Positions 1,747-29,006 of a DNA stretch of 29,486 bases are shown one piece after another (position 1 is the first letter of the stretch; each line of letters starts with the position of its first letter). The notes under the pieces were generated by a model. The model did no database searches, had not been told where the DNA came from, and saw only the letters and a list, made by a program, of their open reading frames with translations. Source of the DNA: a virus; the IMG/VR virus record IMGVR_UViG_3300047443_000296, positions 1 through 29,486 of that record; one strand, given 5' to 3'. The position numbers were made by a program, and so were the translations under genes.

Positions 1747-1974
1747 TCACTTAGCTTGCGGCTCGCTGCTTTCCTTGATCTTGACGCCTGCTGCTCCAGC
1801 GGCCAACAGACCGCCGTAAGCAAGTGAAAAGTTCGCCATGTCGAAGTGGCCTGACTTGTAAACTTCGTAGCCCGAATAGCCCAAGAACGTGATGACGCCA
1901 ACGATCCACAGTACGCGTGCGACATCAACTGTCTGGTTGTCGATGCCTGTAAAAATGTGCTTTAAAAAATTCAT
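1747..1974 (-). CDS. Small two-helix membrane protein, holin-like
   Basis: 75 residues with two hydrophobic helices: about residues 19-36 (ARVLWIVGVITFLGYSGY) and 50-66 (LAYGGLLAAGAAGVKI), separated by a short polar loop with SGHFDM. The tail is charged (KIKESSEPQAK). Small phage proteins with this layout, a DVARVLW start and a glycine-rich second helix, are common in tailed-phage late regions and are often labelled holin-like without proof. It starts six bases after the stop of the Ig-like tail protein gene, with a weak AGGT ribosome binding site. It could be the holin, or one of a holin/antiholin pair with the 66-residue protein at 566-766. Confidence 0.6.
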   Translation of the reverse strand: MNFLKHIFTGIDNQTVDVARVLWIVGVITFLGYSGYEVYKSGHFDMANFSLAYGGLLAAGAAGVKIKESSEPQAK

Positions 1975-1980
1975 GTTCTG

Positions 1981-2469
1981 TTACCTGTTGCTATACCAAT
2001 CGCCGTGAGCGGTAATACCAGTCACTGTAGCTGTTGCGCCGTTACCGTTTGTGACTACACACTGCAATACTGCATCGAACGAGCCGTCTGTTAGTTTTCC
2101 GAATGTGCGACTGACTTGGCAATACGAACCATTGGCGTTAGACAGAGTCGGCGTCATGCCGGTGTACGATGTCATTGTCCATTGGTAGGTGATCGTACCG
2201 GAACCACCGATCACAGTTACGCTTGGTGATGCGGAACTTGTGCCGCCAGCATTTATTGATGACTGTGATGAAGATGCGTTGTTACCCGCAACCTTGAATG
2301 CGCTCTTACCGTACAGGTCACTCAACGAGATTGGCGCACCGCCCTTGCCCACCAACGACAGCACATCGCTGTCGCCCAACGAGACAGTTGCACCTCGTCC
2401 CGAGTTTGCGATGCGCAGTTCGTTCAAGACATCGGTAAGGCTGATTGGGCCGCTTGCTTGTAAAGTCAT
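1981..2469 (-). CDS. Small tail-associated protein with Ig-like C-terminal part
   Basis: 162 residues. The N-terminus (MTLQASGPISLTDV) is a signature seen at the start of many small phage tail proteins. After a Ser/Asn-rich linker at about residues 65-80, the C-terminal half has an alternating beta pattern with GGSGTITYQW, two cysteines and a CVVTNGNGA segment, like an immunoglobulin-fold domain used for surface adhesion. The start codon shares its A with the fibre stop codon (TAATG), so it is translated by coupling with the fibre. It is therefore probably a fibre companion, such as a tip or decoration protein or an assembly helper. Confidence 0.65.
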   Translation of the reverse strand: MTLQASGPISLTDVLNELRIANSGRGATVSLGDSDVLSLVGKGGAPISLSDLYGKSAFKVAGNNASSSQSSINAGGTSSASPSVTVIGGSGTITYQWTMTSYTGMTPTLSNANGSYCQVSRTFGKLTDGSFDAVLQCVVTNGNGATATVTGITAHGDWYSNR

Positions 2470-5400
2470 TACGCGGCCTCCAATGCTGCAATACGAGCCT
2501 GGAGTTCAAGCACAAGCTTTGTCAGCTCGACTACGGACACCATCGCTGCACCGCCATAGTTGACGGTCTTTTCGCCTTCTTCGTCAGTGTGGACAGCAGC
2601 AGGGAGGATTGCTTCAAGCGACTGCGCGCCAACGCCCAGACTGGTCTTCTTGGTGTCGATCCAGTCGAACATACCGACCTTGTTGATACTTGCCAGCTTG
2701 GTCAGGAAGTGTGGGGAGACGGCTTGCCAGTTCTCTTTCTTGGTCTCGTCGGACGTTTGCGTGACCACCGCACCGCTTACAGTTCCGCTTGCTGTCCAGT
2801 TACCGTTACTCCAAGTGCAAGCGCCGGTATAGCTGCCACTAGTGTCATACATCCAGAGCGCTCCAACCTCAGTAGAGTCGATACCGAATCGGTATCGCGC
2901 AGTGGCATTGCTCTGCTGAACCTCAATGGCAGTGCGCTGAGTTCCGTTCGCACCATTCGCACGTTGGGCATGTGTGCCCATCTGTATGACAGTGAAAGGA
3001 GAATACTGAACAACCGGGCTAGTGTTGCAAGTGATACCGAAAGAGCCGTCGCTGATGTGGTAGAGGCCGGTGTCTGGGGCACCATCATTTTGGAACGAAA
3101 TGCCGGGTGCAGACGATGTACCCTCAGCAAAAAGCACCTGGGAACCAAAGGTCGCACCGCCGTTGACTTGAAGCTTTGAACCGTTGTCAGTGGTCGTACC
3201 AACCAGAAGATTACCCGTTGCCGTAACGCGTGCACGTTCGGTGTTATTCGTAATGACCTGAAGTGTGGAATCCAACGCGCCAGTACCGCGCAAGAAGCTC
3301 AGACCAGCAGCCGTACCAGAACCGACATACTCCATGCCGAAGGTAGCCTGAACAGTGCTTGCAGCACTGCCGCTACCGTTACGGGCGATCAGTTGGAAAT
3401 TGCTGTCACTTGCGCCACGAGTCAGGATGGCTTGGGCATTGTTGGCGACGTTGCCGCCAACGTCTAATCGTGCAGTCGGAGCGGTCGTATTGATGCCAAC
3501 GTTGCCGCTTGCGTCGAGGCGCATCTGTTCGGTTTCAACAGTACCAGTCAGGTCAACAGCACGGCCAAAGATCATCGATCCCGAACCATTAGAACCGATG
3601 CCCAGCATGCCGCCGCTATTGTGGTTGAAGATCACGCGCATCTGCGGAGACGTGCTGTACCCCCCCATACCCACGGTAGCGCCCAGAGTAGCTCCGCTAT
3701 TAACGACCGCACCGACACGCACGCTACCATTTACGTCTAACTTGGCGCTCGGCGAAGCAGTACCGATACCCACGTTACCGATGGAGTCGATGCGCATTCG
3801 TTCGGTCATCACGGCACCGGCCACACCAGTATTGGGACGCGTGAAGAAGGCCAACTTACCTTGTTCTTCGCCGCTACCTGCCCAATCCAGCAGACCCTTA
3901 ATGCCAGCCATTGGGGAGGTAGTGGACGACATCGCGTTCAGGTACAGCGAACCACCGGCTTGTGCGACGTTGCCACCGTTCGAGATAGCCACATCACCGC
4001 TATCCACATGCAGTTTGTAGTTGGGCGACACACCAACACCAAGCTTACCTTGTGCATCGACCTTGACGTAACCGTTGTAGGCGTTCAATAAGATACCGCC
4101 ACTGGCGTAACCGTTCGCCAGTCGAGTGTAACCATCGGCGGGGTCATACAACTTCAAGACGCCGTTTGATGAAGCAGTAGTATTGCCTGCATAGCCGTTA
4201 CCAGAACCAATAGCAAAACCCGCCGGTTGGCCGAGATTGCCGTTGGAGTCGATACGAGCGTATTCAGTAGCGCCACGAGAGAACGTCAAGTTCGTCGTGG
4301 CCTTCATGGTCCAATAGTTGGTGGACTTGTCATACAGGCGGATACCGGCACCATTCGGATCTTCGATGTGCAGCATTTCCTGCGGCGAAGTAGTACCAAT
4401 GCCGACCTTACCGCTGTTCTCAATACGCATGCGTTCGGTGAGAGCCTGACCAGCAGTGCCGGTAGTGGGACGAGTCATGAAGATCAATTTGCCTTGTTCT
4501 TCATTACCGCCGAACCAGTCCAGTGCGCCCTTGATAGTAGCCATCGGCGCAGTCGTGGTAGACACTGCTTGGAAGTTCAGCGCGCCACCAGCCTGCGATA
4601 CATTGCCGCCGTTTGACACGGTCATGTCACCGCTTTCCACATGCAGCTTGGTTTGTGGGGCACTAGTGCCGATACCCAACTTGCCTGCGGAGTTCACACG
4701 CACGACTTCCACACCGTTCGTTTTGGCGATGATGTCGTTACCAGTCGCGCCGATACGTGGCGAGGTGGTTGTACCACTGGCCGACAATGCCAGTTCAACT
4801 GTGGAAGCAGTGCTGCCGAACAAAGTGTTCAAGCTAGTACTACCGCTTTCTACGTCCAGCTTTGCTCCAGGTGCAGCAGTGCCAACACCTACACCTCCCA
4901 TAAAGTTAGACGTACCAGTAACGCTAAGGGTTGTACCCACATTCGCAGCGCCCGAAGTGCTTACGCTTGAAAGGCTAGCGGAGCCGGTGACGCCGAGTGT
5001 CGATGCAAGCGTAGTTGCACCAGTCACGCCAAGTGTTGTGCCAACTGTTGCTGCACCTGACGTGCTTACGCTTGAAAGGCTAGTTGCGCCAGTGACGCCA
5101 AGCGTGCCGCCAACTGTCGCATTGCTGGTTACGCCGAGCGTCGATGAAAGCGTAGTCGCACCAGTTACGGTCAAGGTTGATGCAAGCGTGGTTCCACCAG
5201 AGACCTTCGCAGGACCGTTGACTTGCAGTTTGTTGGTGCCGTCATCTGAGGCGGTGCCGACCAGCACTCGACCAGCGCTGTTGATGCGCATGTTTTCGAC
5301 GCCGCCTGCGACAAGTGCTAGAGCGCCCGAGTTAGGACGGTACATACCCGTCGATGCTTCGCTGTTGAAAGCGATACCCGGCACGCCGCTTGTGCCGTCC

Positions 5401-25201: not shown

Positions 25202-25792
25202 ATGACGCCGGAAGAAATCAGATGGGTTATGAACTTGGTTGGAACGTTTGGGCTTGGGGCAATCGTGGCGTGCCTGACCTTGTACTTCGTCGCCCAAAAG
25301 CACCTCGGAAGCTACCTGACTGAAAAGGGCAAGAACCTCGCTACCAAGGAAGACATCGAGGAAATCACTCGACTGGTAGAGGATGTCAAACACCAGAACA
25401 ACGAGCTGATCGAGGGAGCGAGAGCGAAGCAGCAAATGCGTATGGCTGCACTCGACAAGCGGCTGCAAGCCCATCAAGAAGCGTTCACGTACTGGCGCAA
25501 GCTGATGGCCGGAAACCGTGAAGGCGAAAAGCCTGTCGTTATCCAATGTCAGGATTGGTGGGAACAGAACTGCCTGTACCTTGAACCCAATGTTCGACAA
25601 GCGTTTGTCGCTGCGTACACGAACGCGCACTTACGAGAGCAACTGCAAAACGCTGGCGCAAACGCTGAAGACATCATCAATGCTTGGAACACTGTCGTTA
25701 TCTTCCCAAGCATCTTGTTCGAGACGATCCAGCTCCCAGGCTTGTCTCTGGACGAACAGAAGAACTTGGCTCCTGACGTGCAGGAGAGTTGA
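25202..25792 (+). CDS. Membrane-anchored coiled-coil protein, 196 aa
   Basis: One membrane helix at about residues 11-31 (LVGTFGLGAIVACLTLYFVAQ), then KGKNLATKEDIEEITRLVEDVKHQ, a conserved segment found in many short bacterial membrane-anchored proteins of unknown job, and a helical cytoplasmic part with a Trp/Cys-containing region (QDWWEQNCLY) and a C-terminal helix. AAGGGA precedes the ATG. It is the first gene followed by the 17-bp dyad repeat. Proteins with this layout recur in mobile islands, so defence or exclusion is plausible, but I cannot name the function. Confidence 0.6.
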   Translation: MTPEEIRWVMNLVGTFGLGAIVACLTLYFVAQKHLGSYLTEKGKNLATKEDIEEITRLVEDVKHQNNELIEGARAKQQMRMAALDKRLQAHQEAFTYWRKLMAGNREGEKPVVIQCQDWWEQNCLYLEPNVRQAFVAAYTNAHLREQLQNAGANAEDIINAWNTVVIFPSILFETIQLPGLSLDEQKNLAPDVQES

Positions 25793-25815
25793 GCTAATTT
25801 TTAAAACAGAACTTT

Positions 25816-25832
25816 GGTTGACGCCGCCTACC
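25816..25832 (+). repeat. 17-bp dyad repeat, copy 1
   Basis: GGTTGACGCCGCCTACC, preceded by AACTTT and followed by ACGCA. It begins 23 bases after the TGA of the gene at 25202. Six of eight arm positions pair. Confidence 0.6.
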
Positions 25833-25857
25833 ACGCAAACGCATTTGAGGAGATGTT

Positions 25858-26406
25858 TTGGACAACGCTCAAACAAGAGAAGCCGAACAACAAGAAGTTC
25901 AGGACTTGGTTAAGGTAGTGAATCGAGCCTCACTGATCGAAAATCTTATGGATCAGGTGATCTCGGAGTATTGCGCGCCCCGAGAACATGCGCGGTTCTT
26001 CATGTCAGAGATCATTCTTAACACATCTGTAATGACGCTGGGAGCCAAGGCAAAGGTAGTCATGGCAGTAGCTCAGACGTTGGATTTCAAGATCGACAAA
26101 GACGCCATCCTTCAAGTCATCAGCCTACGGAATGCGTTTGCACATCACGCAACTAACGCTAACCCAGTAGTGGTGTTTTCAGGAAAGCCAGAAGAGAACT
26201 ACAGTTACCTTTCGTTTTGGCTACTGAACTCTTCTGGTGAGATCGAAATGGTCAAGAGACACGAGGCGTTTGAAAAATTTAATGCTGTCTACTCGCTGGC
26301 TCGCGAGTCGCTTAAGAATTTGCGCGACTGTGTTGCGAAGCATCTTGCTTCTGGCGAAGCCCCAAGATTTCCAACGAAACAGAGTAAGCCGAAGAAGAAA
26401 AAATAA
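25858..26406 (+). CDS. HEPN-like protein, 182 aa, possible RNase effector
   Basis: The start is TTG at 25858, with GAGGAG five bases ahead. The protein is helical: SLIENLMDQVISEYCAP, then SVMTLGAKAKVVMAVAQ, ILQVISLRNAFAHH and a C-terminal bundle. RNAFAH (residues 91-96) is the R-x4-H signature of HEPN domains, set in the typical LRN-x-[FY]-AH context. Many HEPN proteins are metal-independent RNases acting in abortive infection or toxin systems; others are inactive. The tail is very basic (KQSKPKKKK). No antitoxin nucleotidyltransferase partner is adjacent. The family is inferred from the motif and fold pattern only. Confidence 0.6.
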   Translation: MDNAQTREAEQQEVQDLVKVVNRASLIENLMDQVISEYCAPREHARFFMSEIILNTSVMTLGAKAKVVMAVAQTLDFKIDKDAILQVISLRNAFAHHATNANPVVVFSGKPEENYSYLSFWLLNSSGEIEMVKRHEAFEKFNAVYSLARESLKNLRDCVAKHLASGEAPRFPTKQSKPKKKK

Positions 26407-26416
26407 AGCACTTTTT

Positions 26417-26433
26417 GGTTGATCCCATCTACC
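26417..26433 (+). repeat. 17-bp dyad repeat, copy 2
   Basis: GGTTGATCCCATCTACC, preceded by GCACTTTTT and followed by AAGCAGAAC. It begins ten bases after the HEPN-like gene stop. Confidence 0.6.
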
Positions 26434-26456
26434 AAGCAGAACACCAGTAAGTGTGT

Positions 26457-26495
26457 GGAACAGGGCAAACCGCCGTCGAAGTGGCCGATTAGAAG
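26457..26495 (+). pseudogene. Remnant resembling the 3' end of the 24717 gene
   Basis: One frame reads EQGKPPSKWPI, against EGKPPSKW-RV at the end of the 141-residue protein, and about 22 of 27 bases match there. There is no start or upstream coding in that frame. It is probably a leftover of a lost or duplicated gene. Confidence 0.45.
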
Positions 26496-26637
26496 GAAAA
26501 TGGCCTGCCGCAAAAAAAACCGCCAGTTACCATTGAAAACTGCTGAATGATCTCAACATCTAGGCCGTGATAGGCCACATGTGCCATCGAAACACGGCTT
26601 GTCAACGTTCAAATCTAACCGGATGACTGGAGGGGCT

Positions 26638-27090
26638 ATGTTTAGTGCAACACATTACAAACGCGCTATGTTATTAGAAAAAGGGGCGGTAACACTACAG
26701 AGACAGTTCGACGGTCTTACCAACGCAAAGACAAGGCTTGATCCTTTAGGCGATGGTGACTTCAATTCGTTAGAAGTAACTCAGGTTGCGCCAAACATCA
26801 TTGATGCATCCTATCTGAATGTGACCGTTCGTTTTCGGATGCTGCTCACTTACAAGGACGACAAGCCCTACGGTCGAGTTGTGTGCTTGCACAAGTACAA
26901 CTTGTTCGGCAAGGATGATTACGATGTTCTCGGCGAGTTCGGCTTTGATCGCTCTGGAAACACTGACCTGAGCCCAAGTACGGATGGCATGATTCGCACC
27001 CTTAGCGGCAACGCTGACGAAATCGTTGTCGAGTTTTTAGACAAGGCGATCGAGCAGGGACCGCAAGCGCTCGCTCAAGCAAAAATTTAA
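26638..27090 (+). CDS. Hypothetical protein, 150 aa
   Basis: The start is set at the ATG at 26638, which has GGAGGGG just ahead; the in-frame GTG at 26581 and ATG at 26623 lack such a site. The protein is mixed alpha/beta, with LNVTVRFRMLLTYKDD and KYNLFGKDDYDVLGEFGFD strands, and a C-terminal helix (EFLDKAIEQGPQALAQAK). No family recognised. It is followed by repeat copy 3 and then by a strong terminator. Confidence 0.55.
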   Translation: MFSATHYKRAMLLEKGAVTLQRQFDGLTNAKTRLDPLGDGDFNSLEVTQVAPNIIDASYLNVTVRFRMLLTYKDDKPYGRVVCLHKYNLFGKDDYDVLGEFGFDRSGNTDLSPSTDGMIRTLSGNADEIVVEFLDKAIEQGPQALAQAKI

Positions 27091-27100
27091 AGCAGCTTTT

Positions 27101-27117
27101 GGTTGATGCCACCTACA
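27101..27117 (+). repeat. 17-bp dyad repeat, copy 3
   Basis: GGTTGATGCCACCTACA, preceded by AAAGCAGCTTTT (itself a small palindrome) and followed by CAGCAAG. It begins 10 bases after the TAA of the gene at 26638. Confidence 0.6.
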
Positions 27118-27151
27118 CAGCAAGTAGCAAAAACGATTTGTGAGCTTCACT

Positions 27152-27182
27152 AAGCCGGCTTCCTACGGAAGCCGGCTTTTTT
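27152..27182 (+). terminator. Rho-independent terminator of the accessory unit
   Basis: AAGCCGGCTTCC-TAC-GGAAGCCGGCTT is a perfect 12-bp stem followed by TTTTTG. It ends transcription from 24717-27090 and separates the last two genes. Confidence 0.95.
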
Positions 27183-27183
27183 G

Positions 27184-27212
27184 TTGCGTTTCCGGAGAAC
27201 AAACGCGACAAT
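27184..27212 (+). promoter_or_regulatory. Weak candidate promoter for the GIY-YIG / Tad2-like pair
   Basis: TTGCGT, a 17-base spacer, then GACAAT, 30 bases before the ATG at 27243. Each box matches its consensus at only three or four positions. The terminator just upstream means that some promoter must lie in this gap. Confidence 0.3.
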
Positions 27213-27242
27213 GAAAGAATAGCAACTCTACTATCAGGGAAC

Positions 27243-27848
27243 ATGACGTTACGGCAGAAAGTGGTCGCCATCCTTCAACAGCGTGGCGAGCCGGTTACTT
27301 ACCGGGAACTAATTGATTTACTGTGGTCTGCATACCCCGAGTTCAAGCAAAGCAAGGTTGATCATCATGAATCGGAAGCAAAGGCCAGGAAGGAACTGCG
27401 AATAAGACTGGGAGCCCTTGTTAAGGAGCTACCACATACATTCTCAGCCACTTTAAGCGACGGCCGGGTTCTCGTCGGTTTGGCTGCTTCGGACGCAGAG
27501 GAAAGCTTGGAAGAGATCGAAGCTGAGGCTGAGACAGACCAGCCTCTTAGCGCGCCTTCGGTCTATTGGTACACCTTCCCTGCGTATAGATCGAACTCTG
27601 GGCCGTACCCGATCAAGATTGGGCGCGGCACTGACCCAGACGCGCGAATTCGTACCCAAGTCACCGCGATGCCAGAACATCCAATCGTTCTTGGTAAGCA
27701 CGAACATGACGATCCGATAAGCTTGGAACGAGCGCTACACAGCGTATTGATCCTTAGAGGAAAACGTAAGACTGACGCACCTGGGACCGAATGGTTTATG
27801 ACAACTCCAGCAGAGATAGAGACTTTGATCAAGACCGTACTTGGGTAG
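27243..27848 (+). CDS. Winged-helix plus GIY-YIG (T5orf172/MUG113-like) nuclease-type protein
   Basis: 201 residues. N-terminal ~75 residues fit a winged-helix domain (VVAILQQRGEPVTYRELIDLLWS, then RVLVGL). After an acidic linker (EESLEEIEAEAET), residues ~107-190 fit the T5orf172/MUG113 branch of GIY-YIG: VYWYTFPAYR, YPIKIGRGTDPDARIRTQ, LERALHSVL and GTEWF. IKIGR replaces the YIG element, and Arg 135, Glu 162 and His 166 are in the expected places. Relatives are DNA-cutting or DNA-binding phage and mobile-element proteins. Start: ATG with AGGGAA near by. It is 24 bases ahead of the Tad2-like gene and probably co-expressed with it. Confidence 0.72.
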   Translation: MTLRQKVVAILQQRGEPVTYRELIDLLWSAYPEFKQSKVDHHESEAKARKELRIRLGALVKELPHTFSATLSDGRVLVGLAASDAEESLEEIEAEAETDQPLSAPSVYWYTFPAYRSNSGPYPIKIGRGTDPDARIRTQVTAMPEHPIVLGKHEHDDPISLERALHSVLILRGKRKTDAPGTEWFMTTPAEIETLIKTVLG

Positions 27849-27872
27849 ACTTAAGCCAATCTGGCGAAACAC

Positions 27873-28481
27873 ATGAACGACCCATCAATAATTTTTCTTG
27901 CCGCAGTAGTTGCGCTAGGCATCTATTTTATTTACTCATCCGTGTCTAGCAGTCATGCACAAGCGGAACATGAAGCTCGGTTAGTAGCGGAAGGGAAAGC
28001 CGCGTATTTTGTTAAAGTTGCCGCTAGTGGAAAAGGCTCTGTTTATCACAGCATGAACTGCAACAAATGCATAGCTTGGCAGCTGCTTACGAAAGAAGAA
28101 GCGCGGACGAAAGGTTACGCTCCTTGTGCGACTTGTGGAGGAAGGGGACAGTTCAGAATGCTTGAGACAAGTACTAATGCTGTTAGCGTGACTACAGAAA
28201 ATAGTCCTAATGTCTCTTCCAACCTTTTGCCATTATCGCCTAACGTTACGTATAGTGAATCATACAAACGAGCAGCAGAAGCAATAGCTGAAGGCCGTTC
28301 TATCAGACGAAGCAGTTGGGCCCCAGGTAACACCTTGTTGACTAAGAACGGTTCGGTAATTTTGCACAAGGTAGGGTTAAACAGTGCGGGGATACCGTGG
28401 TACGGTCCATCACGGTCAGATCAGGAAGCAGATGATTGGGAAGTCGTCTCTGCCTATTCGGCGCCAGCATTTGATAGCTGA
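27873..28481 (+). CDS. Membrane-anchored four-cysteine protein with C-terminal DUF2829/Tad2-like domain
   Basis: 202 residues in three parts. Residues 5-22 are a membrane helix (SIIFLAAVVALGIYFIYS). Residues ~43-90 hold a metal-binding-like unit, VYH, C-x2-C (63, 66), GYAPC-x2-C (85, 88), like the short Ada-type zinc domain in many secreted proteins. Residues ~126-192 resemble DUF2829: AEAIAEGRSIRRSSW, then IPWYGPSRSDQEADDWEVV. That C-terminal pattern is shared by Tad2, which traps the cyclic-ADP-ribose-type signal of the Thoeris defence. The middle is shorter than in Tad2, and the membrane and zinc parts are extra. Counter-defence is therefore an inference. Confidence 0.65.
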   Translation: MNDPSIIFLAAVVALGIYFIYSSVSSSHAQAEHEARLVAEGKAAYFVKVAASGKGSVYHSMNCNKCIAWQLLTKEEARTKGYAPCATCGGRGQFRMLETSTNAVSVTTENSPNVSSNLLPLSPNVTYSESYKRAAEAIAEGRSIRRSSWAPGNTLLTKNGSVILHKVGLNSAGIPWYGPSRSDQEADDWEVVSAYSAPAFDS

Positions 28482-28507
28482 CGTTCGAAAATCAAAAGAG
28501 GATTTTC

Positions 28508-28524
28508 GGTTGGTGTCACCTACC
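28508..28524 (+). repeat. 17-bp dyad repeat, copy 4
   Basis: GGTTGGTGTCACCTACC, preceded by GATTTTC and followed by ACGCAGCAG. It is the best-paired copy: seven of eight arm positions, with a T-T mismatch at the fourth. It begins 27 bases after the Tad2-like gene stop. Confidence 0.65.
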
Positions 28525-28576
28525 ACGCAGCAGCCATGCATTGCAGCACGTCAGTTTCGGATCGAGAATCGGCAGG

Positions 28577-28585
28577 TTATTCACA
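28577..28585 (+). promoter_or_regulatory. DnaA-box-like site TTATTCACA, copy 1
   Basis: Matches the DnaA box TTATNCACA. TTCACAG here (28580-28586) also pairs with CTGTGAA at 28609-28615. Confidence 0.45.
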
Positions 28586-28631
28586 GGCTCAAAAGTTTTT
28601 TCTTCGGTCTGTGAACAGGTGCTAGAACATC

Positions 28632-28657
28632 AGAAGAAACAAGCACTTACGCGACTG
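28632..28657 (+). repeat. Direct repeat, 26 bases, copy 1
   Basis: AGAAGAAACAAGCACTTAC, then GCGACTG. The second copy at 28718-28743 differs at two bases (CA/AA type changes after TTAC). Centre-to-centre distance is 86 bases. Confidence 0.75.
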
Positions 28658-28717
28658 CGCGCAAACGTTGTGTGAGCTGTGCAGTACGTTTGCTATTGCT
28701 GAGGTCTGGAAAGCAGT

Positions 28718-28743
28718 AGAAGAAACAAGCACTTACAAGACTG
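28718..28743 (+). repeat. Direct repeat, 26 bases, copy 2
   Basis: AGAAGAAACAAGCACTTAC, then AAGACTG. An inverted AGTGCTT lies 32 bases further on, next to a 12-base palindrome, giving an iteron-like look. Confidence 0.75.
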
Positions 28744-28776
28744 TTCAGCAGCGTGTGCAAAATGTGTGCAAATGAG

Positions 28777-28788
28777 TGCTTGCAAGCA
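28777..28788. repeat. Perfect 12-base palindrome
   Basis: TGCTTGCAAGCA. It is close to two GTGTGCAAA words and follows the second direct repeat. Confidence 0.6.
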
Positions 28789-28966
28789 TGTCGGTTGAAC
28801 CGACGACTGCGGCTGCGGACAATCTAGCGCAGGCTTGCACAGGTCTGCAACATGCTCCAGGCGTCACTAGAAACGTCATGGCTGCGTCAAACAGCGGCGT
28901 TCAACACAGGGTAGCTGAACATGCATCGACAGCGTGGTGCGTTATTACTATTGTGCAACATTCAAG

Positions 28967-28975
28967 TTATTCACA
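28967..28975 (+). promoter_or_regulatory. DnaA-box-like site TTATTCACA, copy 2
   Basis: Same sequence as at 28577, again followed by G, next to an AT-rich stretch (GTTATTACTATTG at 28940-28953). Confidence 0.45.
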
Positions 28976-29006
28976 GTCGCGTAGCATCGTTTAATGAAGA
29001 GTGGTA

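Follow-up and report, generated by a model that had tools for sequence, protein, structure and literature searches.

The 202-residue protein encoded at positions 27873–28481 of the 29,486-base stretch of phage DNA analysed here (the window) is, on the evidence of profile searches and its predicted fold, a genuine, though divergent, member of the Tad2-like family, which is known for small phage proteins that take up the immune signals of bacteria. The Tad2-like domain lies at its C-terminal end, behind a predicted membrane helix, a four-cysteine unit and a linker. The most likely reading of its function, which we hold tentatively, is that of a membrane-tethered binder, or sponge, of an ADP-ribose-type immune signal. 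The window is an IMG/VR virus record from a soil phage, an incomplete metagenomic contig. The gene and the parts of its product are as follows:

27873–28481, + strand: accessory gene for a 202-residue protein comprising a membrane helix, a four-cysteine unit, a linker and a Tad2-like domain (open reading frame, Pfam PF11195, codon score)
27888–27944, + strand: predicted transmembrane helix, residues 6–24 (mean hydropathy 2.35; predicted single helix at residues 4–39)
28044–28142, + strand: HxxxC-xx-C ... CxxC unit, residues 58–90, a possible zinc site (sequence; sub-threshold DUF5817 match; low model confidence)
28143–28253, + strand: linker, residues 91–127 (sequence; pLDDT below 50 over residues 89–117)
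28254–28451, + strand: divergent Tad2-like (PF11195) domain, residues 128–193 (profile, alignment, family HMM, fold Z 9.6)

The reading frame looks coding, with a codon score of -0.227 in its own frame and at most -0.452 in each of the five alternatives. Its ATG is not preceded by a strong ribosome-binding site.

Family membership, predicted fold and pocket residues

The PF11195 profile (Tad2-like, formerly DUF2829) matches residues 131–192 of the protein with an E-value of 5.7e-6 and a score of 27.2 bits, above the curated cut-off of 25, and matches the domain alone with an E-value of 9.1e-7 and 29.8 bits. A family HMM built from 32 other members, without the window protein, gives the 202-residue protein 20.9 bits; the best control among 20,000 shuffles and 4,058 reversed open reading frames reaches 8.6, and we conclude that the family match exceeds chance. 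Searches of PADLOC and NCBIfam with the 202-residue protein gave no match.

The AlphaFold2 model of the full-length protein has pLDDT values of 80–94 across the Tad2 region, and when this model is used as a Foldseek query, ranks 1–16 are all Tad2 entries. VIA-align gives Z-scores of 9.6 for SPO1 Tad2, 9.4 for SptTad2, 9.2 for Myroides Tad2 and 8.9 for AcrIIA7; the first unrelated entry has a Z-score of 4.9, compared with 8.3–9.6 for the SPO1, Myroides, Spt and Hgm Tad2 structures. A model of the isolated domain gives a like outcome (Z 8.2 for Tad2 against 2.5). Since the alignments supplied to AlphaFold included Tad2 rows, the fold match supports the profile assignment and is not independent of it. 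An initial annotation of the window had assigned the C-terminal region to DUF2829 and named a PF11195 search and a structure prediction as checks; both bear the assignment out, with SPO1 Tad2 as the nearest fold.

The domain is nevertheless far from typical. Against PF11195, typical Tad2 members score 77–99 bits (84.8 for the SPO1 Tad2 locus), compared with the 27.2 bits of the 202-residue protein, and its overall identity to aligned family members is only 22–33%. An alignment of 33 sequences has seven invariant residues, and the window domain keeps every one of them (A134, R146, W176, D183, A186, D188 and W189). The pattern quoted in the initial annotation is likewise there, but it covers only part of the family signature R-x-x-WNG ... 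W-x-[AP]SQ-x-D-x-x-A-[ED]-DW, in which R, W, W, S, D, A, D and W are kept and NG and Q are changed. Following the first tryptophan of the signature, Asn is found in 118 of 123 distinct domains and Gly comes next in 116 of them, whereas the window domain has Ala-Pro, such that the WNG of the β1-β2 loop reads WAP. Following the Ser of the second motif, 97 of the 123 have Gln where the window domain has Arg (SQ to SR). The W149–W176 spacing, at 27 residues, falls below the family range of 29–77 (median 50; 123 distinct domains).

In the description given by a review (PMC12043709), the gcADPR pocket of Tad2 is built from loops β1-β2, β3-β4 and β4-α3, strand β4 and helix α3, and an insertion after β2 forms the cyclic-dinucleotide site. 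By that description the retained W-x-x-PS-x-x-D-x-x-A-x-DW stretch corresponds to two of the pocket elements, loop β4-α3 and helix α3. The pocket comparison that the initial annotation had also proposed therefore divides at the level of these elements: loop β4-α3 and helix α3 are kept, the β1-β2 loop is changed, and the insertion behind β2, as in the cyclic-dinucleotide site of HgmTad2 and SptTad2, is absent as judged by the W149–W176 spacing. Because the insertion is lost, binding of cyclic dinucleotides by the window domain is unlikely, and from its sequence ADPR-type binding appears possible but in doubt.

These changes (WNG to WAP, Q to R, and the missing cyclic-dinucleotide insertion) count against the sponge reading, and they bear on a second one. 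It is a real possibility, if a doubtful one, that the Tad2 fold has been repurposed, its nucleotide pocket being lost, and that the domain now binds a different ligand or a protein of the membrane or the host, for example in superinfection exclusion or host takeover. Such a change of use would fit the altered NG and Q loop positions and a W–W spacing that is the shortest of the set, as well as the membership in the same fold family of AcrIIA7/HgmTad2, an anti-CRISPR by first description. AcrIIA7 was originally described in that role as a protein with DUF2829 (PMC6739104). Weighing against repurposing is the core signature, with both tryptophans and the D-x-x-A-x-DW helix; its retention at only 22–33% identity suggests constraint on the pocket side.

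Membrane helix, cysteine unit and their rarity among Tad2 proteins

Residues 6–24 form the only hydrophobic segment of its kind in the protein, and the full-length model has a long N-terminal helix, residues 4–39, with pLDDT values of 83–96 through residue 30. Further on, two CxxC pairs, C63 and C66, C85 and C88, are placed after a YHSMNC motif; the membrane anchor and the four-cysteine unit of the initial annotation are thus both found. The unit is a putative zinc site, and in the model the unit and the linker both have low confidence. The name "Ada-like", which had been given to this unit, has no support from profiles. Its best profile match is to DUF5817, below threshold (E 0.0019, 18.5 of 31 bits), and no Ada-type profile was listed at E-values up to 10 in a search in which the HMMER filters drop weak matches, so the name describes a resemblance and not a result.

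The charges beside the helix give little direction, with one acid and no base among the five N-terminal residues and a mixed C-terminal flank, and the membrane topology is consequently ambiguous from sequence. This too counts against the sponge reading, as a periplasmic domain could not act in that way.

The combination of a membrane helix with two CxxC pairs is seen in none of 132 other distinct Tad2 open reading frames, drawn from viral contigs, phages and genomes; this sample is biased toward members near the family consensus, and divergent anchored members may therefore have been missed. The architecture had been put forward as new, and in this sample it is unusual. The accompanying view of known Tad2 proteins as small, soluble molecules needs amending, since stand-alone forms do exist (SPO1 Tad2, 89 residues) but fusions are common in phages. 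In 18 of the 132, Tad2 is preceded by an N-terminal 'IGTK...YN..RGW' domain; at least 124 phage records contain this N-terminal domain, some with an anti-CRISPR annotation. Tad2-like modules are also joined to other, unrelated N- and C-terminal partners. A Tad2 fusion as such is not new; it is the membrane and cysteine combination that is unusual. The variety of unrelated partners favours a repurposed fold, and, with fusions already common and conserved loop residues lost, the functional reading, though plausible, is weaker than the initial annotation suggests. One genome, G710, has five divergent Tad2-like matches (L220, L222–L225), several of which are fused to C-terminal regions through Gly-Ser or Pro-Glu linkers.

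No close relative of the full 202-residue protein was found among the phages, plasmids, viral contigs and species genomes searched; 399 genomes from the order of a Comamonadaceae metagenome-assembled genome gave only noise, and the N-terminal half had only chance matches in phages. PF11195 itself was found in 3 of 399, 4 of 398 and 2 of 297 cellular genomes, each count taking in a centre genome picked for having one, and this rarity is consistent with a phage-side family.

That no close homologue shows the architecture to be maintained is a further point against the sponge reading. It also raises the question of whether the protein arose by decay or chance, as a degenerating Tad2 gene captured behind an unrelated membrane reading frame, with no function as one protein, and the incomplete metagenomic nature of the record lends this some weight. 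We consider it very unlikely, given that the frame is intact over 202 codons, codon use is coding-like, the signature residues are kept, and a boundary repeat lies behind the stop codon as it does for the neighbouring genes.

Genomic setting of the gene

The terminase large subunit (TerL) encoded in the window is 74–84% identical to those of about 20 other viral contigs (L002–L021) and about 39% identical to that of a Rhodoferax phage. The Tad2-like gene sits in the right arm, past the small terminase gene, and the contig ends 1 kb downstream of it. The genes from 25202 to 28481 form a variable set flanked by conserved features, and PF11195 has no match in 27 related phage records, several of them fragmentary, of which 12 hold the corresponding arm. 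The Tad2-like gene is an accessory cassette. Three neighbouring features help define its setting:

27243–27848, + strand: T5orf172/GIY-YIG-type gene, co-directional, 24 nt upstream of the Tad2-like gene (Pfam T5orf172, 4.4e-9)
28505–28530, + strand: copy 4 of a 26-nt cassette-boundary repeat (repeat comparison)
28502–28990, + strand: conserved non-coding element with two DnaA-box-like sites, the right boundary of the cassette region (64–67% identity, 12 relatives)

The 26-nt repeat (TTTGGTTGATGCCACCTACCACGCAG-like) lies behind the stop codons of four window genes, with copies at 25813, 26414, 27098 and 28505. Of 15 related loci inspected, 11 have it in unchanged orientation, and in 7 of those it is 8–41 nt past the stop of an open reading frame. 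The repeat is lineage-specific and resembles a cassette boundary after accessory-gene stops in L006, L008, L010 and L012–L020 as well as in the window. Its last copy forms the left edge of the conserved element, which extends over about 490 nt. All of the TTATNCACA DnaA-box-like sites in the window and the related loci checked are inside this element, often as an inverted pair, and the TTATTCACA boxes are found within it and nowhere else in the same sequences. The element is probably a replication origin of the phage.

On the other side of the Tad2-like gene, a strong terminator-like site (27152–27178) stands ahead of the T5orf172 gene, and it is probable that this gene and the Tad2-like gene share a transcript. 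The N-terminus of the T5orf172 protein resembles a winged-helix region, and the protein has one viral relative, in L228, at 43% identity. A conserved operon of a GIY-YIG-type gene with Tad2 was considered and rejected, as the L228 relative is followed by lipoprotein-like genes and not by a Tad2 domain. On the cassette side of the window, the protein encoded at 25858–26406 carries RNAFAH, an HEPN-like R-x4-H motif. Proteins with R-x4-H recur in the cassette region (window 25858–26406, L008:5673–7065 and L016:4987–5514, with RNAFAH, RNQVAH and RNLCSH), their motifs suggesting HEPN-like domains, with weak Pfam matches (DUF4145, E 0.0024; HEPN, 0.098).

Past the origin-like element, relatives encode TIR-domain, HNH/type IV restriction-like, AriA-like AAA-TOPRIM and DUF4238 proteins. 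In L006 two adjacent TIR-domain proteins are encoded beside the element (1832–3780, minus strand; TIR_2 E-values 9e-16 and 1.8e-19), one of them with a ThsB-type PADLOC match (E 1.5e-10); AriA/AriAB-like AAA-TOPRIM, HNH/type IV restriction-like and DUF4238 proteins are found at L018:1725–3320, L016:3089–4138 and L020:1397–2515. Taken with the HEPN-like and T5orf172 genes of the window, the defence-like genes of the relatives make the arm resemble a place where conflict genes are exchanged. This favours a counter-defence or a defence role for the Tad2-like gene, undivided between the two, and makes the origin-flanking cassette arm a concrete place to search for further phage-carried genes of both kinds. 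The same arm in relatives often encodes small membrane proteins, which would suit a repurposed fold.

A defence role would take the form of a signal-gated membrane effector carried by the phage, with the Tad2 domain as sensor of a nucleotide signal and the anchored oligomer as the part that would disrupt the membrane to block a competing phage. Its plan of a transmembrane helix with a nucleotide-binding fold resembles that of Cap15/OptE (PMC12657218), and the TIR-domain, McrA/HNH and AriA-like genes that relatives carry across the conserved element give the arm the look of a defence cargo site. We regard such an effector as quite unlikely, however, in that no signal synthase lies next to the Tad2-like gene within the window, TIR genes and the Tad2-like gene were not seen together in one phage, and gating is not known for any Tad2 domain. 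With the contig ending 1 kb downstream, a partner of the gene could be missing. Also unlikely is a membrane-anchored receptor for nucleotide signals whose Tad2 fold serves either as the sensor of an effector or as a sponge tethered against membrane-bound immune effectors, within an origin-adjacent array of exchangeable cassettes.

Proposed mechanism and comparison with known systems

Should the tethered domain have retained its binding of immune signals, phages would be able to position sponges at the membrane, the site of many signal-gated effectors. If it has not, the Tad2 fold has been reused outside signal sequestration, and the protein cautions against taking a lone PF11195 match as a prediction of anti-Thoeris activity, a practice followed in PMC13299392.

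For the tethered sponge, our preferred reading, we infer the following mechanism from the gene, its domain, the predicted fold, the retained core signature and the accessory position. The single anchor, the cysteine unit and the flexible linker would hold the divergent Tad2-fold domain at the membrane, where it would most likely still assemble with other copies. Facing the cytoplasm, it would bind an ADP-ribose-type immune signal, and would keep this host signal from its effector in an anti-Thoeris-like, anti-defence role.

SPO1 Tad2 (gp34.65; PDB 8SME, 8SMF, 8SMG, 8WJE) has the same α-β fold as the window domain (Z 9.6, rmsd 2.0 over 64 residues, 31% identity), and R-x-x-W and W-x-x-PS-x-x-D-x-x-A-x-DW are common to both. 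SPO1 Tad2 is a soluble protein of 89 residues, whereas the window protein has 202 and is anchored behind its transmembrane and cysteine units; the window domain is also without some 20 residues between β2 and β3 and has WAP in place of WNG. The Myroides odoratus protein (8V3E and 9EIB, in complex with hisADPR) likewise shares the fold (Z 9.2 over 64 residues) but stands alone and, at about 88 residues, is longer than the window domain. The fold is also that of HgmTad2/AcrIIA7 and SptTad2 (8KBI-K and 8WJD, in complexes with cADPR and/or cGG), with Z-scores of 8.3–9.4. They differ in having a cyclic-dinucleotide site attributed to an insertion (PMC12043709), which the window domain lacks.

Similar in layout are phage proteins in which a C-terminal Tad2-like domain follows another domain, 'IGTK..YN..RGW..GYLVEY'; this partner is unrelated, there is no transmembrane helix and no paired CxxC, and WNG and SQ are canonical. 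CBASS Cap15 and Panoptes OptE, in which membrane helices are fused to a nucleotide-binding domain (PMC12657218), have two transmembrane helices, a β-barrel sensor and a partner synthase. We claim no homology with them; the likeness to the window protein is one of plan, a membrane helix joined to a nucleotide-binding domain.
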